A DNA stretch of 61,863 bases from Pseudobutyrivibrio sp. (GTDB lineage Bacteria; Bacillota; Clostridia; Lachnospirales; Lachnospiraceae), in the NCBI GenBank assembly GCA_017557435.1, contig JAFYYR010000010.1:1-61863 (forward strand). Direction: 5' to 3'. Below, piece by piece: positions 9,635-57,702 of the stretch. The translations under genes and the position numbers were made by a program. Every line of letters begins with the position of its first letter. The first letter of the stretch is position 1. The notes under the pieces are model-generated. The model made no database searches, was not told the DNA's origin, and saw only the letters and a program-made list of their open reading frames with translations.

Positions 9635-9675
9635 TGTAAATGGTTAAATTAACATTATTATTGGAGATTTTATAT

Positions 9676-10740
9676 ATGAAGAAAATAGTAATGACTGGTG
9701 GTGGAACTGCTGGTCATGTCACACCAAATTTAGCACTTCTTCCATATTTAAAAGAGGCAGGCTTTGAAGTGCACTATATCGGCTCATATACCGGTATTGA
9801 GAAAAAGCTTGTAGAGCATGCAGGAGTTACCTACTATGGCATCTCTTCAGGCAAATTAAGACGTTATCATGATTGGAAGAATTTTACCGACCCATTTAGA
9901 GTTATTAAGGGTTTTTCAGAAGCTAATCAGCTTTTAAAGCATCTTAAGCCAGATGTGGTTTTCTCTAAGGGTGGATTTGTATCTGTTCCTGTAGTTATGG
10001 CTGCTGCACGTCAGCATGTTCCTGCCATAATCCACGAATCAGATATGACACCTGGTCTTGCTAACAAGCTTGCCATTCCTTTCGCATCAAAGGTCTGCTG
10101 CAACTTCCCTGAGACCATGAAATATCTTCCAGATGGCAAGGCTGTACACACAGGCTCTCCTATTAGAAAGGAGCTCTTCTCCGGTTCTAAGGAGGCTGGT
10201 CTTAGCTTCACTGGATTTAATAATGAAAAGCCAGTCATCCTTATTATGGGTGGAAGCATTGGCTCTAAGTTCATTAACAATGCTGTATGGTCATCTCTTG
10301 ATGAGCTACTTAAGGATTTCCAGATTGTTCATTTAGTTGGTAAGGGAAATATCAACAAAGACCTTGAAGGCAAGACTGGTTATCAACAATACGAGTTCAT
10401 TAGTGAACAGCTTAATGATGTTTTCGCAATGACAGACTTGATGATTAGCCGTGCAGGTGCTAACTCAATAAGCGAAATACTTGCTCTTAAGATTCCAAAT
10501 ATTCTTATTCCTCTTTCAGCTGCTGCAAGCCGTGGAGATCAGATTCTAAACGCTGCAAGCTATGAAAAGCAGGGCTTTTCTACTGTACTTCAGGAGGAAG
10601 AATTAACTGGTGAGATTTTAGTTAATTCTGTAAAAGATGTTTTCAATCGTCGTGATGAAATAAAAGAAAAAATGGCATCCAGCCATTTGCTGGACGCCAA
10701 TACAACTATCATGAATTTAATTTCTGAACTCTGTGGTTAA
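9676..10740 (+). CDS. murG: MurG (UDP-GlcNAc:lipid I GlcNAc transferase)
   Basis: Converts lipid I to lipid II on the cytoplasmic face of the membrane, the last cytoplasmic step of peptidoglycan synthesis. The 354-residue GT-B protein has the N-terminal loop TGGGTAGHVTPN, a mid-protein GGFVSVP, IIHESDMTPGLANKL, and the UDP-GlcNAc site around SRAGANSISE and the acceptor loop with AAASRGDQ. I use ATG 9676, with GGAGA upstream; a longer frame from 9640 lacks a ribosome-binding site. It stands apart from any murD/ftsW cluster and is one of two plus-strand genes. It ends one base before the convergent serpin gene. Confidence 0.95.
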   Translation: MKKIVMTGGGTAGHVTPNLALLPYLKEAGFEVHYIGSYTGIEKKLVEHAGVTYYGISSGKLRRYHDWKNFTDPFRVIKGFSEANQLLKHLKPDVVFSKGGFVSVPVVMAAARQHVPAIIHESDMTPGLANKLAIPFASKVCCNFPETMKYLPDGKAVHTGSPIRKELFSGSKEAGLSFTGFNNEKPVILIMGGSIGSKFINNAVWSSLDELLKDFQIVHLVGKGNINKDLEGKTGYQQYEFISEQLNDVFAMTDLMISRAGANSISEILALKIPNILIPLSAAASRGDQILNAASYEKQGFSTVLQEEELTGEILVNSVKDVFNRRDEIKEKMASSHLLDANTTIMNLISELCG

Positions 10741-10752
10741 TCTATTTAACCA
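10734..10752. other. Short inverted repeat across the murG/serpin stop codons
   Basis: TGGTTAA, 5 bases, TTAACCA: a perfect 7-bp stem that includes the murG stop and flanks the serpin stop (10742-10744). It lacks a T-run on either side, so I do not call it a proven terminator. It may slow read-through between the convergent genes. Confidence 0.4.
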
Positions 10753-12067: not shown

Positions 12068-12087
12068 AATTATCTCCCTTTGAAAAA

Positions 12088-12504
12088 CTACATAGATAGC
12101 TTTTTAACTACCTCTGTTGTCTCCTCATCTGTAAATTTCTGGTGGCTCCAACCACAGATTGTCTTATCAGGATCATCCTCGTATCTTGGAATGACATGAA
12201 TATGTAAATGATGAACAGTCTGGCCAGCTGCCTCACCGTTATTTTGAACGATATTAACTCCAGCGCAACCAAGCTTCTCCATCATATTCTTAGCAATCTT
12301 TTTAGCAAGAGGAAGTGCCTTTTTTAGTACCTCATCATCTGCCTCAATCAAATTTGCAAAGTGATTCTTTGGAAGAATAAGTGCATGTCCCTTTGTAGCT
12401 GGGTCCGCATCTAAAATCACCTTGAAATCATTATCCTCGTAAATGGAATTAGTAGGAATATCTCCATTAGCTAGTTTACAAAAAATACATTTTTCGTCCT
12501 TCAT
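12088..12504 (-). CDS. HIT family nucleotide hydrolase (HinT-like)
   Basis: A 138-residue protein of the histidine-triad superfamily, hydrolysing nucleoside phosphoramidates or similar compounds. An N-terminal CIFCK zinc-type motif and the triad HHLHIHV (about residues 97-103) are present. GGAGG lies upstream. It lies 23 bases after the flavodoxin/SCP2 gene at the distal end of the dapF-murE-dapA run. Physiological substrate unknown. Confidence 0.94.
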   Translation of the reverse strand: MKDEKCIFCKLANGDIPTNSIYEDNDFKVILDADPATKGHALILPKNHFANLIEADDEVLKKALPLAKKIAKNMMEKLGCAGVNIVQNNGEAAGQTVHHLHIHVIPRYEDDPDKTICGWSHQKFTDEETTEVVKKLSM

Positions 12505-12527
12505 TATTTGCCTCCTTAATGTAAATA

Positions 12528-13523
12528 CTAATCAGAAAATGGGAATATCTCATCAAGCATTCTAAGTGTTTTGAAATTGCCCTTTGCAGTCATATCTCCC
12601 ACTGAAAATGCTCTCTGGAATGTCTCTCGGCCGGCCACTATATTGTCCATAATTCCAGCTGTTAGCTTCATATATACATCTATATTTTCTTCTCTTCCAT
12701 AGCGGCACTCAAGCTGCTCACCATTTGCATATACAAACAGTGGTTGTGTCTTGCCATCTATCATAAATAGATATTTTGCTGCAAAATCCTTGTTGCCACG
12801 GAAATGTATTTTGAAATCATTAATATATTCGTTAGAACTGTCCTCCTGCTTTTGACCCATCATGTCTCTGAACATGCTGGTCAAATCAGCGATATCAGCC
12901 TTCTGTGTCTGAACATACTCATCATCAGATACGAATCTAGAAAGCTGCTCTGACTCTTGCGGAGAAAGCTCAAGCTGGGCTGTGCGGGAAATGCTTCTTG
13001 TGACAGCCTGATTGCTGGTAGGAAGTCCCTTAGTGTGCTGAGAAATAGTCCTATACAATGCCTCCACCTTTTTCTCGATGATGTGGGCATACTCAGCATT
13101 TTCTCTGAATTCTTTCAGATCCTCAACATAACCACAGAATCCTGCACATGGCAGACCACCAAGGATTGCCCATGCATTTTCAAGTGTAACCATGGCCTCG
13201 CGCTCACCGTAGGTTGTTGACATAACTACTGGCTGCATATATGTAGTTGCAAGGGAAGTCTTGTCAGCGTATAGCCAGCAAGCATCCAAAAACTGATTCA
13301 TATAGCCGCCGATTCCCAGCCATTCTACAGTGGTTGCAAGAATGATTCCATCTGCGTCCTTTAATGTCTGTGGCAGCATAGAGATTTGATTTTTCTGTTC
13401 GTAAATATTATAGAGAGTGACCTCAACCTGAAGCTCAACAAGAACCTGCTCCATTTTATTGATAACATATAATGTTGGGTCCTCTAAAAGACCTCTACCG
13501 CCGTAGTAAATGTTTACCTTCAT
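12528..13523 (-). CDS. Flavodoxin-like oxidoreductase fused to an SCP2-type domain
   Basis: A 331-residue two-domain protein. Residues 1 to about 165 look like an FMN/NAD(P)H-dependent reductase of flavodoxin fold: a YGGRG-type start, TTVEWLGIGGYMNQFLDACW, then STTYGEREA. A linker of about 50 residues follows. Residues about 225-331 resemble an SCP2 sterol-carrier domain (KTQPLFVYANGEQLECRY, KLTAGIMDNIVAGRETFQRAFSVG in two adjoining segments, then GNFKTL). The SCP2 fold binds lipids or acyl chains in a hydrophobic tunnel, so the fusion may reduce a lipid-like substrate. It lies 2 bases after the rhomboid stop, tightly coupled. Function unknown. Confidence 0.82.
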   Translation of the reverse strand: MKVNIYYGGRGLLEDPTLYVINKMEQVLVELQVEVTLYNIYEQKNQISMLPQTLKDADGIILATTVEWLGIGGYMNQFLDACWLYADKTSLATTYMQPVVMSTTYGEREAMVTLENAWAILGGLPCAGFCGYVEDLKEFRENAEYAHIIEKKVEALYRTISQHTKGLPTSNQAVTRSISRTAQLELSPQESEQLSRFVSDDEYVQTQKADIADLTSMFRDMMGQKQEDSSNEYINDFKIHFRGNKDFAAKYLFMIDGKTQPLFVYANGEQLECRYGREENIDVYMKLTAGIMDNIVAGRETFQRAFSVGDMTAKGNFKTLRMLDEIFPFSD

Positions 13524-13525
13524 TA

Positions 13526-14206
13526 TTAACCCTCTTCGTGCTCGTTATTATCTAAAGTATAAGTTTTTTCACTGTTTAAATCAACGTGGTGATTGTGGAT
13601 AAGTGTTGGGATTCCATAAGTAATCAGTGTAAGAAGTAAGCCTGACACCAGACCTCCCACATGTCCTGCATTGTCTGTTCCTGCCGATGCAAATCCAAAA
13701 TATAGAGTCAATAAAGCCATAAAAATCATGCGCTTTGTACTGATTCCGCTATATTTGCCTCTATTAACTATTATGACAATAATCATTCCTCCGACTATGC
13801 CAAAGATAGCTCCAGAGGCTCCCGCCACGATATCGTTCTTCCCCATTAGACACATGTAGAAAAACGACAAAAAGGAGCCAGCTAAACCTGCTCCTATGTA
13901 AATGCCAATATACCTGGTGATCCCCACTGCTCGCTCAAATATCTGACCAAGCAAGAACAGTAGTAGCATATTATTGGCCAAATGTTCAATTCCAAAGTGC
14001 AAAAAAGTGCATGTAAAAAGGCGATACCACTCCCCATTAGATAAAATGAGGTAAGGATTCATAGCTCCATGTAAAAGCATGAATCCTCCGCTTCTAGTAT
14101 CACCCATAAACTCCAGCACAATAAAGACAATTATATTAATTGCCACCAAAATAAATGTCACTGGACCATTTTTCGGTTTTAAAAAATCTTCGCTATTAGT
14201 TTTCAC
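13526..14206 (-). CDS. Rhomboid family intramembrane serine protease
   Basis: A 226-residue multi-pass protein with six to seven hydrophobic segments. The catalytic Ser is in GASGAIFG (about residue 133) and the catalytic His in NAGHVGGL (about 184). The HFGIEHLANNM segment is the conserved membrane-face motif. Such proteases cut within or next to transmembrane helices; targets are unknown. It starts with GTG one base after the dapA stop, with no clear Shine-Dalgarno, so it probably relies on coupling to dapA. Confidence 0.94.
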   Translation of the reverse strand: MKTNSEDFLKPKNGPVTFILVAINIIVFIVLEFMGDTRSGGFMLLHGAMNPYLILSNGEWYRLFTCTFLHFGIEHLANNMLLLFLLGQIFERAVGITRYIGIYIGAGLAGSFLSFFYMCLMGKNDIVAGASGAIFGIVGGMIIVIIVNRGKYSGISTKRMIFMALLTLYFGFASAGTDNAGHVGGLVSGLLLTLITYGIPTLIHNHHVDLNSEKTYTLDNNEHEEG

Positions 14207-14207
14207 C

Positions 14208-15101
14208 CTATGCTAGCATTTCCTGTGGCATCCTGCTAAGCAGCTTGCTCATTGCCACCTTATGCTCATCCTCCATCTCTGTAAGTGGAAGTCTAAGACT
14301 ACCTACATTAAATCCTAACATATTCATTGTAGATTTAACAGGGATAGGATTTACTTCACAGAAAAGTGCATCTACCAGCTCAAGGTAATCAAGCTGTAGC
14401 TTTCTCGCTCTCTCCTCATGGCCATTTAAATACTCCATAACCATGTCGTGAGTTCCTCTTGGTGCCACATTAGAAAGTACTGAAATCACGCCGATTCCAC
14501 CAAGCGCTAAAATAGGAATAATCTGGTCATCATTTCCTGAATAGATATCTAGACATCCTCGGCAAAGGCTTGCAAGCTTTGTAATCTGGGAAATATTTCC
14601 GCTTGCCTCCTTGATACCTACTATATTTGGATTCTCAAGGCCAAGTCGCATAGCTGTCTCTGGGAGAATGTTGCATCCAGTTCGGCTAGGCACATTGTAC
14701 ATAATAATTGGAAGATCGATTTCATGGGCTACTTTTGTGTAATGCTCGTACAAGCCCTGCTGTGTAGCCTTGTTGTAAAATGGTGTAACAATAAGAAGAC
14801 CATCTACCCCAAGCGCCTGAATCTTCTTGGAAAAATCAATTACAAGGCGAGTGGAATTGCCACCTGAACCTGCAATAACAGGAATCCTGTGATTCACTCT
14901 CTTTACAGTAAAGTCAATAACAGAAAGCTTTTCTTCCTCGCTCATAGTAGCTGGCTCACCTGTGGTACCGCATACAATTATGGCATCAGTATGGCCTTCT
15001 ATTTGTCTGTCTATCAGAGTACCAAGCATGTCATAATTTACGGTTTCGTCTTCGTTAAATGGAGTAATAAGAGCTACTCCGGCACCTTTAAATAATGTCA
15101 T
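14208..15101 (-). CDS. dapA: 4-hydroxy-tetrahydrodipicolinate synthase
   Basis: Condenses pyruvate with aspartate semialdehyde, the first committed step to diaminopimelate and lysine. The 297-residue TIM barrel has the GTTGEPATM phosphate/carboxyl motif, the YNVPSRTG motif with the catalytic Tyr, and the Schiff-base Lys in GIKEASGN. I start it at ATG 15101, with GGAGG 8 bases upstream. This overlaps the end of murE by 14 bases. A longer frame from 15161 lies inside murE and is not favoured. Product flows to the neighbouring dapF and murE. Confidence 0.96.
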   Translation of the reverse strand: MTLFKGAGVALITPFNEDETVNYDMLGTLIDRQIEGHTDAIIVCGTTGEPATMSEEEKLSVIDFTVKRVNHRIPVIAGSGGNSTRLVIDFSKKIQALGVDGLLIVTPFYNKATQQGLYEHYTKVAHEIDLPIIMYNVPSRTGCNILPETAMRLGLENPNIVGIKEASGNISQITKLASLCRGCLDIYSGNDDQIIPILALGGIGVISVLSNVAPRGTHDMVMEYLNGHEERARKLQLDYLELVDALFCEVNPIPVKSTMNMLGFNVGSLRLPLTEMEDEHKVAMSKLLSRMPQEMLA

Positions 15102-46975: not shown

Positions 46976-47001
46976 AAAAAGCACCCTGCAATTAGGGTGC
47001 T
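46976..47001 (-). terminator. Terminator closing the radical SAM peptide operon
   Basis: On the minus strand AGCACCCT, 6-base loop, AGGGTGCT and then T-rich sequence. It begins about 20 bases after the last permease gene stop. Confidence 0.9.
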
Positions 47002-47019: not shown

Positions 47020-47682
47020 TTATCCCTGTTTAGTTCTTGGAAAAAATCTTTTTAAACTAATTTCTGACCATAATGGACCTCTTCGTTCAATTAAGAATGA
47101 TAATATAAAAAGCACGCATGATATTATCAATTGCATCATTATTGTCCCTTCGTAATTACTAGGTATGGCAACGAAAATGAAAGGATTAAGTATACTATCA
47201 TTTGTCACATTTATTATCCAATATATCCAAAATAAGGACATAATACATAAACTTCCAGATTTTCTCTTTATTATCCCACATACAAATGTTGTCACACTTG
47301 TAAAATATATAAAAGAATTTATCGTTGTTACAAAATAGATTCCTATTTCAGATTCATAGTCGAAGCCTAAATCAAACAATGCCAAATATATTAGTACATT
47401 AAGAATTATAATTATTAGTTCTATAGCAATAACATTAATGATTCTAATAAGAAAGGTCCGCCATTTATATATATTCGAAACATAATATAACTCTTCCATT
47501 CTGTACTCATACAACTCAAGATTCATAAATATGGAAAAAATAATTGCAAATAATGGCAGATACATTATAGATTCATTTATAAAATCTAAAGTTGTACTTT
47601 TGTACATTGAAATTAAAACTATGACTGAAAGGCATAATCCCATTATTATATATTTACCATTGAACTTTAGCGATTTAATCAA
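47020..47682 (-). CDS. Membrane protein, ABC-2-type permease candidate 2
   Basis: A 220-residue protein with about six hydrophobic segments and a basic C-terminus. No family motif is recognised. It starts with TTG behind AAGGA and overlaps the preceding membrane-protein gene by 4 bases (TTGA). The two membrane proteins follow the ATPase gene 48728-49585, so together they look like an ABC transporter of the kind that gives self-immunity in bacteriocin clusters. AT-rich codon use. Confidence 0.75.
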   Translation of the reverse strand: MIKSLKFNGKYIIMGLCLSVIVLISMYKSTTLDFINESIMYLPLFAIIFSIFMNLELYEYRMEELYYVSNIYKWRTFLIRIINVIAIELIIIILNVLIYLALFDLGFDYESEIGIYFVTTINSFIYFTSVTTFVCGIIKRKSGSLCIMSLFWIYWIINVTNDSILNPFIFVAIPSNYEGTIMMQLIISCVLFILSFLIERRGPLWSEISLKRFFPRTKQG

Positions 47683-48725
47683 AGTGTTTTCCTTCTTCCT
47701 CTTTTACAGTTATATCCCACAGTAAATACTATTATTGCCACCAACAAAACTATTATCCTTTGCGCAAAAGAATACTTGTAAATTGATGTTTGAATATCGT
47801 CCAACCTTTGTATAACTATCAATCTATAAATAATCTTGGGGATGGAGAATGCTTTAGGCGTAATATTTAGGATTACCCATGCAAGATATACAGGAATGGT
47901 TGCTGCAAAGTTTTCTCCAAATAGTCTGTACAAAAAAACCAAAATAGCAACACACATCAATAATGTTGGTATAAATATGGTTAAATATCTTGGATAAGTG
48001 TAACAATAATGTATGTCATACCCAGCATTCTTATATTTCATAAAACTATAAACGTTAAGCACTAAACCAAAGATATAAGTATAAATAACGCAAGGAATGA
48101 TAATAACTAATAGATCATATATATAAAACTTAATTTTTCTAGTATTTGTAATTCTTCTTGCCTCCTCAATTTGAGGATTATGATTATCGTGCACAAAGAA
48201 ATATACATATGGCAAAAGTATAAAAGCCAAAATTGCTTGCGAATACGTAATAAATTTCTTCTGTACATCTATCTGATATCCGTAATTAGAATTTTCTTTC
48301 ATAACAGATGCATTTGCATCATCAACCGTTTTATACTGATATTTGGCATTACTTATTAACGAATCTATCAACAAATAATGGTCTGTTTGCTCGTAATATT
48401 CTTTTACCTCATCTATTCCTTTTACTTCCAACTGCTCTTTTATATCTTCAAGCATTTTTTTAGTGTTAGGCGAAGTTGCAGAATTATTAATTTTCTCTTC
48501 AACATCATTAAGCACTATCTCTTTTATATCATCAGAAGATAAATCCTTATATATATATTCGATATCACCTAAATCTCCTACACTTACCAAGTCTGACTCA
48601 TTTTCAAATGGATAGTACTTAATCTCTTTTAATTGGGAAAGAATGAATAAAGTGTAAAGAACAAAAAACGCTATAATAAATGGTTGTTTGCACCTACAAA
48701 TAATGCTGTTTTTTATATAATCCAT
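47679..48725 (-). CDS. Membrane protein, ABC-2-type permease candidate 1
   Basis: A 348-residue protein: an N-terminal helix (about 15-30), a 120-residue extracytoplasmic charged loop (about 35-160), then five hydrophobic segments. This topology (helix, large outer loop, helix bundle) is that of ABC-2 permeases. It starts 2 bases after the ATPase stop, with AAAGGA upstream. Family recognition is weak and based on topology and context. Confidence 0.75.
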   Translation of the reverse strand: MDYIKNSIICRCKQPFIIAFFVLYTLFILSQLKEIKYYPFENESDLVSVGDLGDIEYIYKDLSSDDIKEIVLNDVEEKINNSATSPNTKKMLEDIKEQLEVKGIDEVKEYYEQTDHYLLIDSLISNAKYQYKTVDDANASVMKENSNYGYQIDVQKKFITYSQAILAFILLPYVYFFVHDNHNPQIEEARRITNTRKIKFYIYDLLVIIIPCVIYTYIFGLVLNVYSFMKYKNAGYDIHYCYTYPRYLTIFIPTLLMCVAILVFLYRLFGENFAATIPVYLAWVILNITPKAFSIPKIIYRLIVIQRLDDIQTSIYKYSFAQRIIVLLVAIIVFTVGYNCKRGRRKTL

Positions 48726-48727
48726 TT

Positions 48728-49585
48728 TTATTTTCCTTTAATCGCCCACATATAGGCATCCTCTAGTCCAATAGCAGTTGCACTATCGTAATTGTCATTG
48801 GTTACAACAGCTCTTACCTTTTGGTCCTCCCTATAAAATGAAATGATTTCATTGTCTTTAGCAAATTCCTGAAATTCAGATAGAGATTTAAATATCACTT
48901 GGTTTAAGCTGCCTTTTGCTTCTTCTATTAGATTGTTTATTTTACCATCGTATTTTTTATTTCCGTGTTCTAAAATAATCACACTGTCACATATATGAGC
49001 TATATCCTCTACAATATGAGTAGAAATAAGTACAATATGGTTTATTGCGTAATCACTTAATAACTGTCTTATACGAATTCTTTCCTCTGGATCAACACCA
49101 GCTGTGGGTTCATCAACTATTAAAACATCTGGATCGCCAATCATTGACTGCGCCAAACCTAATCTCCTCTTCATGCCACCAGACAATGCTCCCACTTTCT
49201 TTTTTCGGTCGTCTGAAAGATTTACAAGTTTAAGCAATCGATCTATTTCATCTTTACGATTTTTCTTTGGAATACCTCGTACAATACACAACTCATTCAT
49301 AACTTCTTGAATAGTATAGTATTTGTACATTCCAAATTCTTGTGGCAAATATCCTATATGTTTTTCAAACTCTCTATCTGAAACTTTCTTTTCGTCAACA
49401 TAATATTTAACCATTCCATTTGAAGGTTTTAATAACCCCACCAAGGTTCTAAATAGAGTTGTTTTTCCTGCTCCATTTCGCCCAAGAATACCATATATTC
49501 CATCTGTAAATGTGGCATTGATTTTATTTAATGCAAGGACTTCCCCGTAGTTTTTAGTTAAATCGATTATTTCTAACTTATGCAT
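48728..49585 (-). CDS. ABC transporter ATP-binding protein
   Basis: A 285-residue ATPase with Walker A GRNGAGKTT, Q-loop LPQEFGMYKYY, signature LSGGMKRRLGLAQ, Walker B VLIVDEPTAGVDPEE and H-loop STHIVED. The clade is that of multidrug/bacitracin-type exporters. ATG 49585 is chosen, with GGGAG upstream. It lies 10 bases after the exporter gene and partners the two membrane proteins downstream. Role: immunity or second export step. Confidence 0.92.
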   Translation of the reverse strand: MHKLEIIDLTKNYGEVLALNKINATFTDGIYGILGRNGAGKTTLFRTLVGLLKPSNGMVKYYVDEKKVSDREFEKHIGYLPQEFGMYKYYTIQEVMNELCIVRGIPKKNRKDEIDRLLKLVNLSDDRKKKVGALSGGMKRRLGLAQSMIGDPDVLIVDEPTAGVDPEERIRIRQLLSDYAINHIVLISTHIVEDIAHICDSVIILEHGNKKYDGKINNLIEEAKGSLNQVIFKSLSEFQEFAKDNEIISFYREDQKVRAVVTNDNYDSATAIGLEDAYMWAIKGK

Positions 49586-49595
49586 TTTAACTCCC

Positions 49596-51260
49596 TTAGA
49601 TTGCTCTTTTATCAACATATTTTATATTGCCATTATTAACTTCAATAATATTATCCAATTTCTTTGCAAGAGCTTTTTTGTGTGTAATCATTAGTATCGT
49701 TTTATCTTTAAAAATAGAATATATTAAATCTACTATTTTGCTTTCTGTTATCTCATCAAGCATTGATGTTGATTCATCCAAAATTATTATATTGGAAGAA
49801 CGTAATACTGCTCTTGCTAGCGCTAATCTTTGTTTTTCTCCACCTGAGATTTTTATACCATTATCACCCATATTCGTTTCTAATCCATTCTCTAGTCTAG
49901 AAAACCAGGTAAATAGACTCACTTTTTTTAGAGTTTCAATTATTTCTTCGTCAGAAATATTATTACGAACATTTAAATTCTCTCTCAAAGTGCCATTAAA
50001 TATATATACTTCCTGTGATATATATGAAATCTGGTTTCGAATATTTTCTATTCCTATTGTTTTTATACTGTGTCCATCTATCAATATGTCACCATCATTT
50101 ACCTCGAGAATTCGATATAAAAGTTTTGCCATAGTTGATTTTCCCGCTCCACTCTTTCCTATGATTGCATAAGATTTATTCGATGGAATGCTGATAGAAC
50201 AATTTGATAGTATTTCTTTTTTCCCATACGCATAATTAACATTCACTAACTCAATGTCTCCATGTAAACTATAATTAGTGTGTACATCAACCATTGTTTT
50301 TTCGCTAATTAATTGTTTTTTTATTTTATTCCACGAAATTTTAGCGTCTATGATATCCGAAGGAAACTTATATATTTGAATTATTGGATTACAAAATCTT
50401 TGTGAAAAAATATTGAATGTAATCAACGCTCCCATACTTAACGTTCCATTTATTACTTGAATACCACCAAATGCTAGTATTGATGCAATCATAACTGTAT
50501 TTAATAGAAAAATAACTATATCGTTCTTCTTGATTTTAAGAGATAAATATCTCCATTTTTTATTATAATTATTTTCACTATTATTAATTCGTTTATACGT
50601 ATATTCCAATAAGTTTGCGCCTATTATCCATATATAATTATATACAATATCTTGCGCCACCTTATTCTTTTCAATTAATTCATCCCTAAATTCCTCGTTA
50701 TGAAATTCTATTTCTTTATTATATTTTGCCTGCGTTCGAATAATTAACACTTGAAACAATATTAGTATCCCCAAAAGCTTATAGTTTAAGCATGATAAAA
50801 AGACTCCTAGTCCCAAAAGTGTTAGGATATTCTTTATAAGATTAAGAAACTGCCCCGTAATTATTACTGGAATTCTTTCTACATCACTATATAGCAGGGT
50901 GTATAATTCACCATTATCTATTTCAGAAAAAAAGGTTCCATTATATTTTTCAAGTCTTTTTATTAGTTTAAGCCGCAAGTCTGTAGCCATATTTCTCTCT
51001 AATAAAATGCTTAATTTACTGTATAGTAGATCGGTACTAACATTAACAATTGCAATGGCTACAAATAAGGAACTATATATTAGCGTTCTTTGTATGTTCT
51101 TACTTTCTATTCCTTCATCGAAAATTTTTAATAACAAAATTGGAGACACTATATTTGTCACTCCAACCATTATATTTGTGACAAAACAACTGATAACTTT
51201 AATTCTATACTTTTTATAATATAATAAAATTTCTTTAAGAAGTCCTAATGTCTCCACCAT
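49596..51260 (-). CDS. ABC exporter, fused permease-ATPase, without peptidase domain
   Basis: A 554-residue half-transporter. Six membrane segments occupy about residues 20-300. The ATPase domain has GKSGAGKSTM, QEVYIFNGTLRENL, signature ISGGEKQRLALARA, IIILDESTSMLDE and THKKALAKK. It lacks the N-terminal C39 peptidase domain that would cleave double-glycine leaders, so leader removal must be done elsewhere, plausibly by the subtilase upstream. It overlaps that gene by 26 bases. Probable exporter of the mature peptide. Confidence 0.92.
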   Translation of the reverse strand: MVETLGLLKEILLYYKKYRIKVISCFVTNIMVGVTNIVSPILLLKIFDEGIESKNIQRTLIYSSLFVAIAIVNVSTDLLYSKLSILLERNMATDLRLKLIKRLEKYNGTFFSEIDNGELYTLLYSDVERIPVIITGQFLNLIKNILTLLGLGVFLSCLNYKLLGILILFQVLIIRTQAKYNKEIEFHNEEFRDELIEKNKVAQDIVYNYIWIIGANLLEYTYKRINNSENNYNKKWRYLSLKIKKNDIVIFLLNTVMIASILAFGGIQVINGTLSMGALITFNIFSQRFCNPIIQIYKFPSDIIDAKISWNKIKKQLISEKTMVDVHTNYSLHGDIELVNVNYAYGKKEILSNCSISIPSNKSYAIIGKSGAGKSTMAKLLYRILEVNDGDILIDGHSIKTIGIENIRNQISYISQEVYIFNGTLRENLNVRNNISDEEIIETLKKVSLFTWFSRLENGLETNMGDNGIKISGGEKQRLALARAVLRSSNIIILDESTSMLDEITESKIVDLIYSIFKDKTILMITHKKALAKKLDNIIEVNNGNIKYVDKRAI

Positions 51261-52182
51261 ATCTTTTTACCAGATTCGCTATATTATTTATTGTTAAAAA
51301 ATCCGAAAAACTAACATCATCCGTTATTCTTATTTTGTATTTTTTTTCAAGTTCACTGACTATATTTAATAAATTTATTGGCTTAATTATCCCTAATTCT
51401 ATTAAGTTGTCATTATTGTTGATATTATTCAATGACAATATGTTTTTTAACTCTCTATAATTTCTATTACCTATTATCTCATTACTTTTTTTATATGAAT
51501 CCCAGCTATTATATTGAAAATCACCCGCATCTTCGTTATTAAATAGTTCCTCACCATTTAATCCCTTGCTTAATTGTCTCATCATTAGTGCTGATGCTAA
51601 TGCAGCAGCCTTACTCGTTCCTCCAAAAAAGTAGAAATTATTATTTCTTTTATCTGTACACTCTGGAATTTTGTTTAAAACTAAATCCTTGGAATGTAAT
51701 TTTCTTTTATCTACCTTCCAAACATTTGAAGGAAAATACCCCCCCTTAATTCCCCAAACATATTTGTTGCTTGCCGGATAACCGCTTTCAGCATGATTGG
51801 GGTAAGAAGATATAATTTTAACATTCTTTTCTACGCATAATTCTTTTATTATTCTTTCAGTTTTATTGCTCGCCTCTCCCATTAATGTCATGCTTATATT
51901 AACTATATTACAATTAATCCGAAGGCAATATTCCAACGCTGCTTCGAGCTGAAATATCGTGCTCATTCCATCGTCTGTAATTTTTATAATCGTGAAAGAA
52001 GCATCTTTGTAATAATTATTGATGATGTTATAACATGCGGTACCATGCCCATAATAATCAATAGCATCTTCATTGCATATAATCTTACCTTGCTTGAAGA
52101 TAAAATTTTTTTTATCTTCAATATTATATTTTATTTGTGGATTTATTCCTGAATCTATAATTACACACTTCATATTTTTCAA
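51235..52182 (-). CDS. Cytoplasmic subtilisin-like (S8) protease with carrier-protein-like tail
   Basis: A 315-residue protease. The triad is D10 (VIIDSGINP), H46 (YGHGTACYN) and S190 (GGTSKAAALAS), with oxyanion Asn at about 129. It has no signal peptide or prodomain, so it should act inside the cell on the modified precursors. Residues about 235-315 resemble an acyl-carrier-protein helical bundle (ELGIIKPINLLNIVSELEKK and a following ITDDVSFSDFLTINN), but the DSL serine for phosphopantetheine is replaced (IKP). The start codon is TTG 52182 or ATG 52173; GGGGC near TTG lies in a hairpin. Confidence 0.88.
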   Translation of the reverse strand: MKNMKCVIIDSGINPQIKYNIEDKKNFIFKQGKIICNEDAIDYYGHGTACYNIINNYYKDASFTIIKITDDGMSTIFQLEAALEYCLRINCNIVNISMTLMGEASNKTERIIKELCVEKNVKIISSYPNHAESGYPASNKYVWGIKGGYFPSNVWKVDKRKLHSKDLVLNKIPECTDKRNNNFYFFGGTSKAAALASALMMRQLSKGLNGEELFNNEDAGDFQYNSWDSYKKSNEIIGNRNYRELKNILSLNNINNNDNLIELGIIKPINLLNIVSELEKKYKIRITDDVSFSDFLTINNIANLVKRYGGDIRTS

Positions 52183-52185
52183 TTA

Positions 52186-52207
52186 GCCCCTAGTTTTAGC
52201 TAGGGGC
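52186..52207 (-). other. Hairpin between precursor genes and the protease gene
   Basis: GCCCCTAG, 6-base loop, CTAGGGGC: a perfect 8-bp GC-rich stem inside AT-rich DNA, 9 bases after the second precursor stop. No T-run follows. The 3' arm holds the GGGGC that would act as Shine-Dalgarno for the protease. It could lower downstream expression and protect precursor mRNA. Confidence 0.75.
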
Positions 52208-52215
52208 CTTCTTAA

Positions 52216-52392
52216 TTACATCCATGTACTAGTTCGTGGTGTATAGGCTGTGCTATAAATTACACAACCGTCATTTCCACTTGTCTTTCCCACCCATACA
52301 TTTTTTTCAACACAATCATCGTTACAACCTTGTGCTATCACATTCGTATTAAGGGCTCTTTCGGAAATCTTATTCATTTTTACATTTTCCAT
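52216..52392 (-). CDS. Predicted RiPP precursor peptide 2 (58 residues)
   Basis: A small peptide directly after precursor 1 and behind AGAGGAG (8-base spacing). It aligns with precursor 1 along its length: a leader with KIS and ALNTNVIAQ, then a core with Cys 23, 27 and 43. The shared motifs are AQ-x-C-x2-DC, VW-x-GKT, GC, T-PRT and a final W. The N-terminal ~20 residues are probably leader, the rest core. It lacks a double-Gly cleavage motif. It is adjacent to two radical SAM enzymes, a protease and an exporter, the context for a modified secreted peptide. No known family is assigned. Confidence 0.88.
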   Translation of the reverse strand: MENVKMNKISERALNTNVIAQGCNDDCVEKNVWVGKTSGNDGCVIYSTAYTPRTSTWM

Positions 52393-52408
52393 AATAGTTG
52401 CTCCTCTC

Positions 52409-52582
52409 TTAGAACCATTTTGTTGTTCTTGGTGTTTGTCCTGTTGCAGTCCAGCATCCACCACTATTACCTTCACTAGCTGTTTTTCCTGCCCAAACAG
52501 TTTCTGTACAATCGTTACCGCATGATTGCGCAACAACTTTTACATTTAGTCCAGTTTTAGAGATTTTGTCAAATTTCTTCAT
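52409..52582 (-). CDS. Predicted RiPP precursor peptide 1 (57 residues)
   Basis: Starts at ATG 52582 with the strongest Shine-Dalgarno in the cluster (AAAGGAGG, 6-base spacing), suggesting high expression. The sequence begins MKKFDKISKT, then LNVKVVAQ, and has Cys 21, 25 and 43 in a core with DCTETVWAGKT, GGCWTATG and TPRTTKWF. Shares with precursor 2: AQ-x-C-x2-DC, VW-x-GKT, GC and TPRT-x2-W. The basic leader (about 1-19) should be recognised by the RRE-like domain of the first radical SAM enzyme. Too short for routine gene callers to score well, but homology to its neighbour supports it. Confidence 0.9.
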   Translation of the reverse strand: MKKFDKISKTGLNVKVVAQSCGNDCTETVWAGKTASEGNSGGCWTATGQTPRTTKWF

Positions 52583-52650
52583 GTTAAGCCTCCTTTCATT
52601 AAATATTTATTCAAAATTTTTTGAATACTAATTGAAATAATACGACCTAT

Positions 52651-53646
52651 TTATTTTTCACTTGTCGCAAGAGAGATTTTTATGTTATGTATTTTGCATA
52701 TATTTATATTTGGTTGATTCCATTTTCCAGTTTGGTATTTGTTTATCAACTTGCATCTTGTTGCTTCGCAATAGTCATATCGAGAACAACCTACGCAGGA
52801 CTCCACCTTGGATCTATCATGTTCATGAATCTTTCTAACTCTATCAATATTAACTCCATTAAAAACATCACCAATGCAATACTCACTTTTTCCATTTACA
52901 ACAATGCACGGATATAATGCCCCATCACTATCTATGACTATTGTTGTTATTCCTCCGTTACAAACAGAATTCTTACATTTGTATTTTGCATCATAAATTA
53001 ATCCAATTTCAGCTTTAATGTTTTCTTTTTCTATATATCTTTTTACCTTTTGTAATTTTTCAAGCAACTCATCCCATTGATCCTTACTCCACAAATCAAA
53101 CTGATCAACCACTGGCGATATTCGACCAAACCCCATATTTATTAGATGAATTATGCTTTTGTCTACGCCTATATAATTTAATGTATTGATGGTCATTCTG
53201 GCATTAATTCTATTCTTATCGTTTGGAAAATAATTATTTATATTTTCTATGACAGTGTCATATGTGCCTTCATTCTTTTTATCAATCCTGTTTAAATCAT
53301 GCAGTTCTTTATTTCCATCTATGCTTATCGCCAGGGAATCTATTTTATCTTTTAAAAATTCAGCTACTTCTCCATTTAGTAATGTTCCATTTGTAGTTAG
53401 CGAATATGTGACTGCGCCATTTTTCTTTCTGGTATTTATCTTATTTATTAAATATTTAATCTTTTCAAACTCTAATAAAGGTTCGCCACCATGAATAACA
53501 ATAGATATCTCACCATCATAATTTGCTACCATTTCTATAAATGCATTAAGAACCTCATACGATATTGATTTGTTTTTTTTATTCTTTTCATAACAATAAT
53601 TGCAATTAAGATTGCACATATTTGTCATAAATACTGTAAAATTCAT
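52651..53646 (-). CDS. Radical SAM/SPASM peptide-modifying enzyme 2
   Basis: A 331-residue enzyme. The [4Fe-4S]-SAM motif C11-x3-C15-x2-C18 (MCNLNCNYCYE) is almost at the N-terminus; HGGEPLL follows. The C-terminal SPASM-type region has about eight cysteines (CKNSVCNGG, LYPCIVV, YCIGDV, SCVGCSRYDYC, ATRC, final C). There is no N-terminal RRE. I start it at ATG 53646, two bases after the stop of the first enzyme; a longer frame from 53691 overlaps that gene. The inferred job is forming a cross-link or epimer in the precursors. Confidence 0.93.
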   Translation of the reverse strand: MNFTVFMTNMCNLNCNYCYEKNKKNKSISYEVLNAFIEMVANYDGEISIVIHGGEPLLEFEKIKYLINKINTRKKNGAVTYSLTTNGTLLNGEVAEFLKDKIDSLAISIDGNKELHDLNRIDKKNEGTYDTVIENINNYFPNDKNRINARMTINTLNYIGVDKSIIHLINMGFGRISPVVDQFDLWSKDQWDELLEKLQKVKRYIEKENIKAEIGLIYDAKYKCKNSVCNGGITTIVIDSDGALYPCIVVNGKSEYCIGDVFNGVNIDRVRKIHEHDRSKVESCVGCSRYDYCEATRCKLINKYQTGKWNQPNINICKIHNIKISLATSEK

Positions 53647-53648
53647 CC

Positions 53649-54866
53649 CTATCCCCAAACTGCCTCCAATAATTGTTTTTGTGAAGTACATCTTTCTTTA
53701 AACTCAGAATCTGTTAAGTTTTCCATTTTTTGTAAACACGACCAACAAAACCACGTTAAGTCACAGTTCTTACAATTCTTATACTTATCTGGGCTAAACT
53801 CCTCTAAGTTCTTAGAAAGAAATGTTTTTTCATTTCCTAGGATTTTTCTTATTTCTATTTCATCTCTAATATTCCCAAGGATGTACTTCTTTTGACAAAA
53901 CATATTACAAGGATATATCTCTCCATTTGCTTCAATAACTAGTTGATTATACCCAGCAGTACAAGTACAACACTTGAACTTAGAGTTACTACTATTCTTG
54001 GGAACCGATTGACTTTGTTTTATAGTGTGTTCTGATAATAGTACAGATTTGTTTTCAGCTGCTCTCCCGTATAACGACATTGCACGTAGCATTGGTCTCG
54101 TGCCTAGTTCTTCATTAAGCGCAAAATATTCATCTGTATACTTTGCATTGTCTTCAGTTAGAACCATTGAAGTAGATATCTTTTTTGCCCCCACTTTTTT
54201 TAGATATTGAATTGAATTGACAACTTTATCGAAAACTCCCTTACCTCTTATCAGTGAGCAAGTTTCTTCATTAACACCATCAATGCTTATATCAAAGCTG
54301 TCATATAAATTATTCAGCCTTTCTACATTTGAAGCATTAATTAATGTTCCATTTGTCATCAAACCAACTCTTCCAGTATAATTTCTTCTTAAATATTCAC
54401 TAATTTCAAAGAAATCTTTCCTTACTAATGGTTCGCCTCCCGTAATCGTTATTGAATCCGGTTTGGCTTTAATAATTTTATCTAGGTTTTCAATAACTTC
54501 ATTTGTTGAAAAATAATCACTAGAACTACCATAATCAGCATTGACCATACAATGTATACATTTCAAATTACATCTATGGGTTATTGAATAACTTATATTA
54601 TCAATTTTGTGTTCTTTGTCTTCTTGATATGCAAAAAAATTTATTTCCTTTAATTTACTTGCAATGGAATCTATGTATTCTGAATCCTCTTCATCATACA
54701 TCATGCCTTTAAGTTGATTTAAATTAAGATTATTCTCATTTGCATAATCAAAAAATTTTGCAGTTTCCTTAGGTAACTTTATCCATTTTCCGCTTAATCT
54801 ATTTAGAAAAATCACCTTTTCATTTCTTTCCAAACGTCTAATCTCATTACTAACATTCAAATTCAT
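53649..54866 (-). CDS. Radical SAM/SPASM peptide-modifying enzyme 1 with RRE-like N-terminus
   Basis: A 405-residue enzyme. Residues 1 to about 85 resemble a PqqD-like precursor-recognition element (IFLNRLSGKWIKLP, then TAKFFDYANE). The radical SAM core has C99-x3-C103-x2-C106 (HRCNLKCIHC) and TGGEPL. The C-terminal SPASM region has CCTCTAG, YPCNMFC and NCDLTWFCWSC. It is the first gene of the peptide operon, after a 300-base gap. It probably binds the leader and installs the first modification (thioether or C-C bond); which one is unknown. Confidence 0.93.
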   Translation of the reverse strand: MNLNVSNEIRRLERNEKVIFLNRLSGKWIKLPKETAKFFDYANENNLNLNQLKGMMYDEEDSEYIDSIASKLKEINFFAYQEDKEHKIDNISYSITHRCNLKCIHCMVNADYGSSSDYFSTNEVIENLDKIIKAKPDSITITGGEPLVRKDFFEISEYLRRNYTGRVGLMTNGTLINASNVERLNNLYDSFDISIDGVNEETCSLIRGKGVFDKVVNSIQYLKKVGAKKISTSMVLTEDNAKYTDEYFALNEELGTRPMLRAMSLYGRAAENKSVLLSEHTIKQSQSVPKNSSNSKFKCCTCTAGYNQLVIEANGEIYPCNMFCQKKYILGNIRDEIEIRKILGNEKTFLSKNLEEFSPDKYKNCKNCDLTWFCWSCLQKMENLTDSEFKERCTSQKQLLEAVWG

Positions 54867-55113
54867 AATTTCTATACCTAACCCTTTAATAATATGTTTC
54901 TATTTTTTATTTACTTTGCTTGTACTATATTTTGACCTTTACATTCGTAATAACTTCTAATTATCGTTTATTTCTGTTTCAATTATAATTAAAGAAAAAC
55001 TCTATTTTTAAAAACCCTTTATATGGACGATATATAGAGTTTTTTTTTAACTTGCTTCTTTTAATAACCGTTTACTTCTTAAATCTTCCTTTTACTCCAA
55101 TCGACTGGCAAAC
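54867..55113 (-). promoter_or_regulatory. AT-rich regulatory region of the peptide operon
   Basis: The 300-base gap before the first radical SAM gene. It holds a long-loop inverted repeat (AAAACTCTAT/ATAGAGTTTT, 54995-55045, flanked by T-runs on both strands) and a TATAAT (54982-54987, minus) without a good -35, as expected for an activated promoter. No clear pair of LytTR direct repeats was found. Confidence 0.5.
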
Positions 55114-55140
55114 AAAAAAAGGAATCCATATCTGGATTCC
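55114..55140 (-). terminator. Terminator after the LytTR regulator gene
   Basis: On the minus strand GGAATCCA, 4-base loop, TGGATTCC and seven T. It lies about 27 bases after the stop. Confidence 0.9.
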
Positions 55141-55166
55141 CTTTCTAAGCTTATATTTGTACAGAA

Positions 55167-55886
55167 TCATATCCTTCTATTCTTTAATATAAACTCCTCT
55201 ATTCTATTATTAAATGTCTTATATTTTAGTCTGCTTATTAGTACCTTCTCATTGTTTTGTAATGATACCTCCGCATGGCTATAAGAATCAACATAATTCA
55301 TGTTAATTAAAAAAGATTTATGTGTTCTACAAAACTTTTTTTTTGAAACTAATGTCTCAACTTTAGCTAAAGTTTCACTGCATTCTATTGGTTCCTTCTT
55401 ATTTGCTAAATGAATAATACAGTTTTTACCATCTCCTTCAATATAGATAATGTTATCTTCTTTTATAAATTGTTTTAAGCCATAACACTTTACTGCAATC
55501 GTAGAATCTTCCTTTATTTTATTAATATAGTCAAGCATTGTGGCAAAAAGTTTTTCTTCTTCTAACGGTTTTACTAAAAATCGAAATGCATCTACCTCAA
55601 AAGATTCAAAAACAACTCTTTCATATCCTGATAAAAATATTATTGTAATATCTTTATTAGATTCCCTAATTTTTCTAGCTATCTCTATACCGTTTTCGCC
55701 CTTATTTTCAAATTGGTAATCTAAAAAAAGCAAATCAAAATCATTACATTCTTCCAGAAAACTCTCGCCACTCTCAAATTGTTTTACTTTAAAATCAAAA
55801 TCTCTCTGCACCGAAAACTTTACCAACATTTTTTCTGTTTCAGCTCTTACAAATTCTGAATCATCACATATTGCAATCTTTGTCAC
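55167..55886 (-). CDS. LytTR-family response regulator (AgrA-like)
   Basis: A 239-residue regulator: receiver domain with CDD near residue 8, phosphoacceptor Asp at about 56 (LLFLDYQF), Lys in VKPLEEEK, and a C-terminal LytTR DNA-binding domain (about 140-239; EDNIIYIEGDGKN, CRTHKSFLINMNYV). Start taken as GTG 55886 with AAGGGG 8 bases upstream. It follows the kinase by 12 bases and is predicted to activate the radical SAM peptide operon and possibly itself. That regulation is inferred from location. Confidence 0.92.
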   Translation of the reverse strand: MTKIAICDDSEFVRAETEKMLVKFSVQRDFDFKVKQFESGESFLEECNDFDLLFLDYQFENKGENGIEIARKIRESNKDITIIFLSGYERVVFESFEVDAFRFLVKPLEEEKLFATMLDYINKIKEDSTIAVKCYGLKQFIKEDNIIYIEGDGKNCIIHLANKKEPIECSETLAKVETLVSKKKFCRTHKSFLINMNYVDSYSHAEVSLQNNEKVLISRLKYKTFNNRIEEFILKNRRI

Positions 55887-55898
55887 GTACAACACCCC

Positions 55899-57200
55899 TT
55901 ACATTAATTTAACTAAAATCACTGACTTAAAAATCCCATCTTCATAACTAAGTGTCATATTTCCGTCATATTTTTGTACTGTTCGAAATATATTTTGAAG
56001 ACCATATCCATGTATTTTATTGTCTAGTTTTGTCGTTCTAATCTGATTATTGATAATCGTTACATCTGTACTTGGATTTTCAACATTTATAACCCATAGT
56101 TTTTTTTGCAAAACTGATTTTATGTTAATTGCTTTTTTTCCAGGTAGTTTCGCGCACGCTTCAATTGCATTGTCAAGCAAATTTGACAACATAACCACCA
56201 TGTCTATATCTTTTACCTTTTCCGCTGGAATATAACCTTCAAATTTTATGCTAGTATTTTGTGTCGCCGCCTTTGTATCTTTTGCACTTAATATTGCATC
56301 GGCCATGATATTACCAGTATCATATTTAGGCTTTAATTCCGCACATGTTTCTTGTAATTCTTCTATGTAAGATAATACTTTTTTGTTTTCCCCTTCTTTT
56401 ATCATTACATGCAAAGCAAGAAGCAGGTTTTTTATGTCATGCCTAAATTTCTTAGATTGATTATCTTTTTCTATTAACTGATTATAATAATCAGTTGTCT
56501 GATTCATTTGCTTTTCAAGTAAAGCATTTATACCTTCCAAAGAGTTCTTTTTTTCTGTAACAATAATCATTCTTATTATCACTAGTACTATAGATATTAC
56601 TGTTATTATTAATGTTGTTTGAAAGGCCCTTGAGTTTTCAGTTGACTTAATCACGTTTGCTTCAATAACTGATAAAGTAAATAAAACCAATATGAATAGA
56701 AGATAATCTAGTGCTTTCATATCTGCAATCCAAATTGAAATCAATTTATTCCACTTTAATATCGCAAGTGTTATCAATGCTAAAAACAATAAAATTTCAC
56801 CAATAATCTCGTTTGTATGTGTGTAATTTACTGTCAGATCAAATACCTTTTTTATTAGCAATAGAACATTGTATCCTACAAATGACACTAGCTCTACAAA
56901 AAAAGCTATTAACATATAATTTCGTAAATTTATTTTATAGTAAGAACTTATTAATAATCCCGATTTTAGGAAAATAAATACCGTAAATACGAATTTAATT
57001 TGGATTTGTTTATAGCCGGCTAATACAACATATGTATATCCTATTATTATCGCAAGAAATATAATCCATTTAGTAAAAATCTCTATTCTCCGACTTTCCT
57101 TCACTGGTAAATCAAGAAAAAATTTTACGATAATATAAACATTTATTATCTCTAAAAAACACCAGAATAACAGAATTAATGCATTTATAATTTGAGACAT
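55899..57200 (-). CDS. AgrC-like sensor histidine kinase (GHKL)
   Basis: A 433-residue kinase. The N-terminal 200 residues have six to seven hydrophobic segments, as in peptide-pheromone sensors of the AgrC/ComD type. A coiled linker precedes the H-box FRHDIKNLLLALH, N-box NLLDNAIEAC and G-box HGYGLQNIF. I start it at ATG 57200, directly behind a run of eight G, which serves as ribosome-binding site; an in-frame ATG at 57215 lies before the run. Pairs with the LytTR regulator. The signal is unknown; no AgrB/AgrD is present. Confidence 0.92.
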   Translation of the reverse strand: MSQIINALILLFWCFLEIINVYIIVKFFLDLPVKESRRIEIFTKWIIFLAIIIGYTYVVLAGYKQIQIKFVFTVFIFLKSGLLISSYYKINLRNYMLIAFFVELVSFVGYNVLLLIKKVFDLTVNYTHTNEIIGEILLFLALITLAILKWNKLISIWIADMKALDYLLFILVLFTLSVIEANVIKSTENSRAFQTTLIITVISIVLVIIRMIIVTEKKNSLEGINALLEKQMNQTTDYYNQLIEKDNQSKKFRHDIKNLLLALHVMIKEGENKKVLSYIEELQETCAELKPKYDTGNIMADAILSAKDTKAATQNTSIKFEGYIPAEKVKDIDMVVMLSNLLDNAIEACAKLPGKKAINIKSVLQKKLWVINVENPSTDVTIINNQIRTTKLDNKIHGYGLQNIFRTVQKYDGNMTLSYEDGIFKSVILVKLM

Positions 57201-57273
57201 TCCCCCCCCTTTCATACATTTATTACCGGGTTTTATTTAATTTATTTTATTATAAATAAACATATTTTTAAAC

Positions 57274-57310
57274 AAAAAAAGTAGCATTGATTAACTAAAA
57301 TCATGCTACT
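57274..57310 (-). terminator. Terminator overlapping the stop of the 57301 gene
   Basis: On the minus strand AGTAGCAT and ATGCTACT pair (with GATT/AATC below), followed by seven T. The 5' arm contains the end of the coding sequence. Confidence 0.87.
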
Positions 57311-57702
57311 TCTACAGTTCCTTTCACATAAATGTCTGCAATAATATAATCATCGTCTACATTTATATGCTTCACCTTACAATATTTTATTTTTGATAGT
57401 TTTTTATTTTGAGCTATTATCACTTCTACTTCTGCTAGTTTCTCTCTAAAACTAATTAATGAATCCTCTAGCCTAATTCTAATTGCTGGCCATATAGAAA
57501 TCTCTTGGGCTATATCAGCCTCCTCTACTTTGTAGAATAATATACAATTATTATCATCTATCTCTACTAATAAATCTCCATCACAGATAGCTGTAATTTT
57601 CTTAATTGTATCTATCAATTTCTCTTGTAAACATATTTCAAATTTAGTATATCTAAATACTAATTCCTCGTGTTCTAATAGCTTTATTTGGTATTCCTCC
57701 AT
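57301..57702 (-). CDS. Hypothetical protein, 133 residues
   Basis: A soluble, acidic protein with no motif I recognise. It is mixed alpha/beta in appearance (LLVEIDDNNCILFYKVEE, then KIKYCKVKHINVDDDYIIAD). No signal peptide or membrane helix. Its ATG (57702) has no good Shine-Dalgarno, but a 7-codon mini-ORF with an excellent one ends 9 bases upstream, so translation may be coupled. It lies between dacA and the kinase, and its terminator isolates it from the kinase. Confidence 0.72.
   Translation of the reverse strand: MEEYQIKLLEHEELVFRYTKFEICLQEKLIDTIKKITAICDGDLLVEIDDNNCILFYKVEEADIAQEISIWPAIRIRLEDSLISFREKLAEVEVIIAQNKKLSKIKYCKVKHINVDDDYIIADIYVKGTVEVA

Follow-up and report, generated by a model that had tools for sequence, protein, structure and literature searches.

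Gene set and related loci

The window examined here is a 61,863-nucleotide stretch of Pseudobutyrivibrio sp. (contig JAFYYR010000010.1, assembly GCA_017557435.1). It carries an operon at 47020-54866 that probably specifies a ribosomally synthesized and post-translationally modified peptide (RiPP) of an uncatalogued family, with paired radical SAM (rSAM) enzymes and a thioether product, most likely a bacteriocin. The genes and associated hairpins are as follows:

53649..54866, minus strand: rSAM1, a radical SAM/SPASM enzyme (PF04055, PF13186) with a predicted N-terminal beta3-alpha3 domain of the RRE/PqqD-like leader-binding type
52651..53691, minus strand: rSAM2, a radical SAM/SPASM enzyme without the N-terminal domain; the actual start is possibly Met16 at 53646
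52409..52582, minus strand: precursor peptide A (57 residues; CGNDC, third Cys 18 residues on, C-terminal WF)
52216..52392, minus strand: precursor peptide B (58 residues; CNDDC, third Cys, C-terminal WM)
52186..52207, minus strand: hairpin between precursor B and subtilase (-17.1 kcal/mol, z -3.6; no U-tract on the minus strand)
51235..52182, minus strand: cytoplasmic S8 protease (subtilase; Asp10, His46, Ser190) with a C-terminal acyl-carrier-like domain (PF00550)
49596..51260, minus strand: ABC exporter with membrane and ATPase domains and no C39 peptidase (PF00664, PF00005)
48728..49618, minus strand: ABC ATPase, probably for self-protection (PF00005)
47679..48725, minus strand: membrane protein 1, probable ABC permease half (homologues adjoin an ABC ATPase in loci L031, L030 and L043)
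47020..47682, minus strand: membrane protein 2, probable ABC permease half (homologues in L031 and L030)
46977..46998 (approximate), minus strand: operon-closing terminator (hairpin of -16.5 kcal/mol, z -5.4, with U-tract)

A first-pass annotation had described two adjacent radical SAM/SPASM genes, two small homologous peptide genes, an S8 protease without signal peptide but with a carrier-like tail, a fused ABC exporter without C39 domain, and an ABC ATPase with two membrane proteins, all tightly spaced on one strand and closed by a terminator. Every part named there is present. Adjacent genes overlap (rSAM1/rSAM2, subtilase/exporter, exporter/ATPase and the two membrane protein genes) or are 2-68 bases apart. 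The closing hairpin is missing from the list of a consensus terminator scanner. Pfam recognizes the radical SAM domain in both enzymes; the SPASM domain scores 37.5 in rSAM1, which exceeds the gathering score, and 20.0 in rSAM2, slightly short of the required 21.5. For the subtilase, Peptidase_S8 is just below the Pfam score (20.6 versus 21.8), and PP-binding (PF00550) is above it (25.8 versus 20.8). Its catalytic Asp is residue 10, which leaves no room for a signal peptide or a pro-peptide. Precursor B starts at the ATG at 52392, not with the longer TTG frame of the list of open reading frames (ORFs), and a ribosome-site-like sequence is found upstream of both peptide genes. The hairpin at 52186-52207, which the first-pass annotation did not mention, may favour expression of the precursor over the downstream genes; of the 36 relatives examined, 15 likewise have a hairpin of this kind after a precursor (p 0.02 or less by simple shuffling).

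Searches with rSAM1 and rSAM2 retrieved 50 loci beyond the window, mostly from Clostridia and Paenibacillus, three of them on plasmids. rSAM2 is present in 44, the subtilase in 42, a precursor in 42, and all four core parts in 40. The hosts include Lachnospiraceae, Clostridium, Tissierella, Tepidibacter, Acetivibrio and Paenibacillus. Not counted among the 50 are L075, whose rSAM1 is split, and L190, which shares its contig with L056; L025-L028 are identical with L044, L063, L058 and L052. With an rSAM1 alignment as query, 67 loci were retrieved from named genomes; those numbered L030-L070 reach at least 240 with the rSAM1 model. Of 397 genomes of the bacterial family, 18 had an rSAM2 match at 1e-30; six loci were kept, the window included, and an unannotated Cys peptide lies beside rSAM2 in the other five. 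The remaining twelve were set aside as SCIFF-like, a judgement based on length and identity and not on a family model.

Among 72,556 plasmid records, three match at 1e-30. These are the Clostridioides difficile plasmid p_TW11 (L187) and two P. sordellii plasmids (L186 and L188); the precursors are labelled "hypothetical protein" in all three records. The whole operon has no nucleotide match among plasmids. Two of 65 viral contigs were kept (L097 and L098); only these were scored with the family models, the others being dropped on E-values of 2e-13 or worse. The family is sparse: it was found in five of 391 genomes in a class sample and in three of 398 in a phylum sample (two of these weak or broken), the window's own genome being counted in both.

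Precursor peptides and enzymes

A total of 56 precursors from 43 loci, window counted, was assembled. They have a median length of 57 residues, contain three to five Cys each, and have their first Cys at residue 17-28. CxxDC occurs in 53 of the 56 (shuffled cores: mean 1.1, maximum 6), a count that is inflated by the partial selection of the precursors by this motif. They were picked by hand from 63 motif matches. Unrelated-looking short ORFs were excluded (L033, L040, L042, L051, L059, L061, L062, L063, L070 and L075), as were five of ten L098 peptides; the CxxNC/CxxSC peptides of L031 and L049's were added. Because the precursors were chosen with the motif in view, only the held-out loci provide a clean test. 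The precursor model (E 1 or better) gives one match in each of six held-out loci, the three on plasmids among them, all with CxxDC and all on the rSAM1 strand (best 9e-16, weakest E 0.26). Elsewhere, two model matches on the minus strand are genuine: they are the precursors of L024 and L027, loci in the opposite orientation. The few weak plus-strand matches are noise. Short-ORF motif matches in 44 loci show the same strand preference (57 on the rSAM1 strand versus 6 on the other).

An alignment of 44 precursors shows Cys21 and Cys25 in every row and Asp24 and Ile7 in nearly all; the consensus leader is KIxKIxDKxExxxVxxQ. A further Cys follows CxxDC in 39 of the 56 precursors, precedes it in 11, and is found on both sides in 6. 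It is located 11-20 residues after the motif (39-41 in four cases) or 8-15 residues before. Two rSAM1 copies are present in five of the eight loci with a further Cys before the motif versus none of the 35 other loci, with copies counted within the examined stretch of each locus and related loci not being independent.

The family signature is CxxDC plus a further Cys. The two motifs which the first-pass annotation had noted, AQ-x-C-x2-DC and VW-x-GKT, are present in both window peptides; loci sharing both motifs and the gene order, with no characterized product, were to count in favour of novelty. The CxxDC motif, the leader and the gene set are indeed shared; VW-x-GKT is local, being restricted to four of the 56 precursors (both window peptides and two of L031), and is ruled out as a family signature. 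The small ORFs are kept with the enzymes across genera. On this comparative basis, a conserved short leader-core precursor stands beside modifying enzymes, as is characteristic of a RiPP, and the gene set, leader and motif common to a family of loci support the earlier view that this is one functional biosynthetic unit.

Neither window precursor has an NCBIfam or Pfam match at E 0.1, and neither has a match in PHROGs, where only generic radical SAM, anaerobic-RNR and protease matches were obtained. A scan of 44 precursors at E 1 gave stray matches to six families (at most three members each, best E 0.01). The catalogued precursor family of the CLI_3235/CcpM system (see below), which presumably is included in the scanned library, is not among the six.

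Two loci are unusual in their peptides. L098 (IMG/VR contig, 1-14300) has ten short precursor-like genes with CxxDC (e.g. CDPDDCLHDC) around one rSAM pair. L029 (6344-13106, the second locus of its genome, G345) is more remote and combines three rSAM genes with a subtilase-like gene, an exporter and two small peptides (CMVDC and CMYDC), which suggests that the CxxDC motif reaches beyond the family as defined.

The CX3CX2C cluster motif and the SPASM cysteines are present in every aligned row of rSAM1 (n = 42) and rSAM2 (n = 38). The AlphaFold2 (AF2) model of rSAM1 (pLDDT 87.6) has N-terminal elements (strands E9-14, E17-22 and E28-32; helices H33-44, H49-54 and H59-74) that fit a leader-binding-type beta3-alpha3 fold, and its first Foldseek matches are CteB, SkfB, TigE and SuiB. 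In rSAM2, the cluster motif begins at residue 26, so that there is no room for an N-terminal domain. The best NCBIfam score of the window rSAM2 is to PapB (NF047865, 200.7 bits). All 38 rSAM2 proteins match the PapB, SCIFF and QhpD models at 1e-20, the best of them reaching E 3.2e-69 with PapB (about 234 bits by conversion), and the nearest solved sequence is CteB (5wgg). In a phylogenetic tree, a 98/98 branch separates 39 family rSAM2 proteins and one of the two distant L029 enzymes from the second L029 enzyme, SCIFF-like maturases and one PapB-like protein. The distance matrices of rSAM1 and rSAM2 are correlated (r 0.87, n 36; none of 2000 permutations was as high), which indicates that the two genes evolve together. 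They are neighbours in 33 of 36 pairs, a count that includes the window and the fused case, and are apart in L039, L048 and L098. In L058 (9872-12133), they are fused into a 753-residue protein.

The alignment of 36 subtilases has His, Asn (at 129) and Ser in all members, and Asp in at least 90%. Every one matches the QhpE model at E 0.01; for 27, mycosin is a further match. Among solved sequences, intracellular serine proteases come nearest. In the C-terminal tail, the AF2 helices (239-248, 268-282, 292-295 and 298-307) have a carrier-like layout. The site of the cofactor Ser, placed by eye, is Pro268 in the window and Ser in four of 36 (L031, L036, L043 and L048), none of the four being in a DSL-like setting. 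Thus, the tail does not appear to be an acyl carrier with a pantetheine-bearing Ser, this residue being mostly lost. L067 (12665-15319) encodes a fusion of subtilase and ABC exporter (884 residues), which suggests that cleavage is coupled to export; Pfam shows only the ABC part of this fusion, the protease part coming from the subtilase-family model.

Precedents, proposed pathway and alternatives

Among the best 25 families listed per protein, the window enzymes are below every curated NCBIfam cut-off. To this extent, the statement of the first-pass annotation that no known RiPP class can be named holds; the list of parts, however, has precedents in CLI_3235/SacP23 and Qhp.

(a) The CLI_3235/SacP23 set comprises an rSAM enzyme, a subtilase, an acyl-carrier-related protein and an exporter, and SacP23 of Paenibacillus polymyxa inhibits several Gram-positive bacteria (PMC10731318). 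Like the window, the CLI_3235/CcpM system has a radical SAM maturase, a subtilase, an acyl-carrier-related protein, an ABC exporter and a short Cys-rich precursor, and a small carrier-like protein of CcpM locus L201 matches the subtilase-family model at 25 bits. Unlike the window, it has one maturase of about 470-490 residues (L200-L202) rather than a pair, its carrier-like protein is separate rather than fused to the subtilase, it has a TIGR04066 protein (none is among the matches listed for the window), and the Cys peptide of L200 lacks CxxDC. The cut-off of TIGR04068 (CcpM-type maturase) is missed by the window (138.6 of 500 bits), as is that of TIGR04069 (acyl-carrier-related) by the window subtilase (19 of 70 bits; three of 36 relatives match at E 0.01).

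(b) In the maturation of quinohemoprotein amine dehydrogenase (Qhp), Cys-Asp/Glu thioethers are formed by QhpD, the leader is cut off by QhpE while still in the cytoplasm, and export by QhpF follows (PMC7876137). The shared features are an rSAM thioether enzyme, a cytoplasmic subtilisin-like leader protease, and subsequent ABC export. The window rSAM2 and subtilase match the QhpD and QhpE models below cut-off (116.2 versus 453 bits, and 70.2 versus 165 bits for QhpE, NF049966). The QhpE model has 219 positions and covers only the protease part of the window subtilase. In contrast to the window, the Qhp substrate is an enzyme subunit and there is one rSAM enzyme.

(c) PapB, the best score of the window rSAM2, makes the ranthipeptide freyrasin from PapA. 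It accepts Cys-Xn-Asp with n of 0-6, and hence C-X2-D, in vitro (PMC9413430). The freyrasin substrate differs in having six Cys-X3-Asp/Glu units, and a single rSAM enzyme is involved. A Cys-Asn beta link has also been reported (PMC11002830).

(d) For thuricin CD, TrnC and TrnD need each other and act as one complex on two precursors (PMC12093266). An rSAM pair acting on two precursors is also proposed for the window. Thuricin CD is, however, a sactibiotic with alpha-carbon bonds, and the likeness noted here is one of description.

(e) The WGK/bicyclostreptin RaS-RiPPs of streptococci are quorum-controlled rSAM peptides, and the bicyclostreptin set has two rSAM enzymes and an RRE protein. They differ from the window in Rgg/Shp control and in their motifs. 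Cut-offs are also missed for SCIFF/thermocellin (TIGR03974, 107.2 of 425 bits) and, by rSAM1, for the sactipeptide maturases StsB (116.1 of 625) and AlbA (65.7 of 850).

An rSAM RiPP with a subtilase and a carrier-related part is thus already known; what is new here is the paired rSAM enzymes, the fused tail and the CxxDC precursors. No paper linking CXXDC or CX2DC with radical SAM and no characterized precursor homologue was found in the literature searched, as far as the retrieved texts extend. Related systems were found, none of which is recognizable as the family of the window by its title and the start of its abstract; the 2022 atlas of rSAM RiPPs could include the family.

From the gene set, the conserved precursors, the co-evolution of the rSAM genes and the conserved catalytic residues, which are apparent from the sequences, we infer the pairing, bond type, cleavage, docking, export, protection and activity outlined here, the bond type being the least certain step. 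The N-terminal domain of rSAM1 would bind the conserved leader, and rSAM1 would pair with rSAM2, which has no leader-binding domain of its own. The pair would cross-link the CxxDC cysteines and the further Cys of each peptide. For rSAM2, the likeliest link would be a thioether from the Cys sulfur to the beta-carbon of Asp (or Asn), of the ranthipeptide type; the second link would be made by rSAM1. The leader would then be removed by the cytoplasmic subtilase, for which the carrier-like tail may provide docking. The mature peptide would be shipped by the exporter, itself devoid of a peptidase, and the second ABC system would protect the producer. In the window and in a minority of relatives, control of the operon may lie with an agr-like two-component system. 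The product would most likely be a bacteriocin, less likely a signal. The order of events in Qhp, the Cys-Xn-Asp scope of PapB, the interdependence of TrnC and TrnD, the activity of SacP23 and the L201 match favour such a paired-enzyme thioether bacteriocin, and the frequency of Cys-x-x-Asp among the precursors is compatible with a thioether to a non-alpha carbon.

Several observations weigh against this proposal. In three precursors, Asp is replaced by Asn or Ser (CxxNC or CxxSC), and the motif count suffers from the selection described above. rSAM2 is below the PapB cut-off (200.7 versus 340 bits), and the lone PapB-like protein in the tree sits with the SCIFF maturases, outside the family branch. 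Pfam PqqD is not reported for rSAM1 at E 0.1, and its N-terminus has a weak profile link to those of SCIFF maturases (E 0.0044, probability 3%; controls 0.29-0.72). The carrier-like tail is above the Pfam score in the window only (one of 36), so that this domain is less sure in the relatives. One or more core parts are absent from the stretch examined in 10 of the 50 loci, three of which are on contigs below 4.1 kb. Protection-type ABC homologues are found in a minority of loci (ABC ATPase homologues above 120 bits at 13 places in 49 loci examined). Response regulator and kinase genes are missing from the examined stretches of most loci, and no AgrB was recognized among the window ORFs listed around the operon.

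It is tempting to go one step further, although this is doubtful, and to speculate that the family constitutes a RiPP class of its own. In this case, two halves of a split maturase, with one leader-binding domain between them, would convert CxxDC and the further Cys into a fused multi-ring thioether knot whose centre is the Asp between two cysteines, and the finished peptide would dock on the carrier fold of the subtilase, from which the cofactor Ser is mostly lost. The position of the further Cys, after or before the motif, would then define two ring topologies, the "before" type often going with a duplicated rSAM1.

Alternatively, one rSAM enzyme could make a C-C or C-O bond (a cyclophane, Trp-Lys or similar) on the conserved aromatic residue near the motif or at the C-terminus, and the other a thioether. 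This is possible, though on the unlikely side. A Trp or Tyr is found at most nine residues after the motif in 41 of 50 precursors, and an aromatic residue is among the last two in 47 of 56, versus 14.7 in shuffled cores. At 1e-20, 39 of 42 rSAM1 proteins match WgkB, by its family name a Trp-Lys linker. The aromatics are not strictly placed, however, and the WgkB match of the window rSAM1 (93.8 bits versus a cut-off of 650) does not exceed in strength the matches to heme-synthesis and mycofactocin enzymes.

It is rather unlikely that both rSAM enzymes form Cys-to-alpha-carbon bonds, as in sactipeptides, with the Asp of CxxDC merely aiding recognition or folding. Thuricin CD is a precedent for a two-rSAM sactipeptide (PMC12093266), and at 1e-20 rSAM1 matches StsB in 41 of 42 cases and the mycofactocin maturase in all 42. 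Yet rSAM2 has its best score with PapB, AlbA is absent from the 25 families that are listed for the 38 rSAM2 proteins, and alpha-carbon acceptors need no particular side chain, which leaves the prevalent Asp to be accounted for.

Under the thioether reading favoured here, the Bacillota, including three clostridial plasmids, contain a defined and testable family of uncharacterized cross-linked peptides. Two questions for enzymology follow: why an rSAM pair would share a single leader-binding domain, and which role a carrier fold mostly stripped of its cofactor serine has on a protease.

Regulation and genomic setting

The following features were found upstream of the operon; the regulator and kinase genes had not been mentioned in the first-pass annotation:

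54989..55050, no strand assigned: 17-nt inverted repeat upstream of rSAM1 (arms 94% complementary; z -4.3 as RNA), a candidate operator or terminator
55117..55144, minus strand: terminator-like hairpin after the LytTR gene, this being the regulator gene's own hairpin
55167..55895, minus strand: LytTR response regulator, the probable regulator (PF04397, PF00072)
55899..57215, minus strand: GHKL (AgrC-like) sensor kinase (PF14501, 84.5 bits)
57301..57702, strand not stated: DUF5975 protein beside the kinase (DUF5975 match)

Relatives of the regulator and the kinase are both present in nine of the 50 family loci (window excluded) versus two of 94 control loci, and AgrB in five of the 50 versus none of the 94. 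The controls are of mixed taxonomy, both genes were counted anywhere in the stretch examined, and queries were taken from two of the nine positive loci; the enrichment is therefore only indicative.

Since kinase and regulator adjoin the operon and no AgrB accompanies them among the ORFs listed, the peptide itself could be a quorum-sensing signal that is read by the kinase. We consider this improbable compared with a bacteriocin role. Most loci have no such kinase. In the two P. sordellii plasmids, the regulator, the same kind of kinase, AgrB and a cyclic-lactone peptide gene are all upstream of the rSAM genes; with a dedicated AgrB and cyclic-lactone peptide, the RiPP there looks like an output.

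The GC content is 0.28-0.33 over 46-58 kb, compared with 0.35-0.44 in the preceding 2-kb blocks and 0.39 thereafter. None of 18 other genomes of the genus has an rSAM1 match at 1e-35, and the cluster is missing from the 11.5-12 kb stretches around greA in five of them. Low GC and absence from these genomes make the region look like an acquired island, which probably takes in the LytTR regulator and the GHKL kinase. These two properties might also fit a decayed or chance cluster of unrelated neighbouring genes, but the same genes and precursors in distant genera, the conserved active sites and the co-evolution make this a negligible option. The neighbours of greA vary among the five genomes of the genus (L176-L180), resembling an insertion hot spot.

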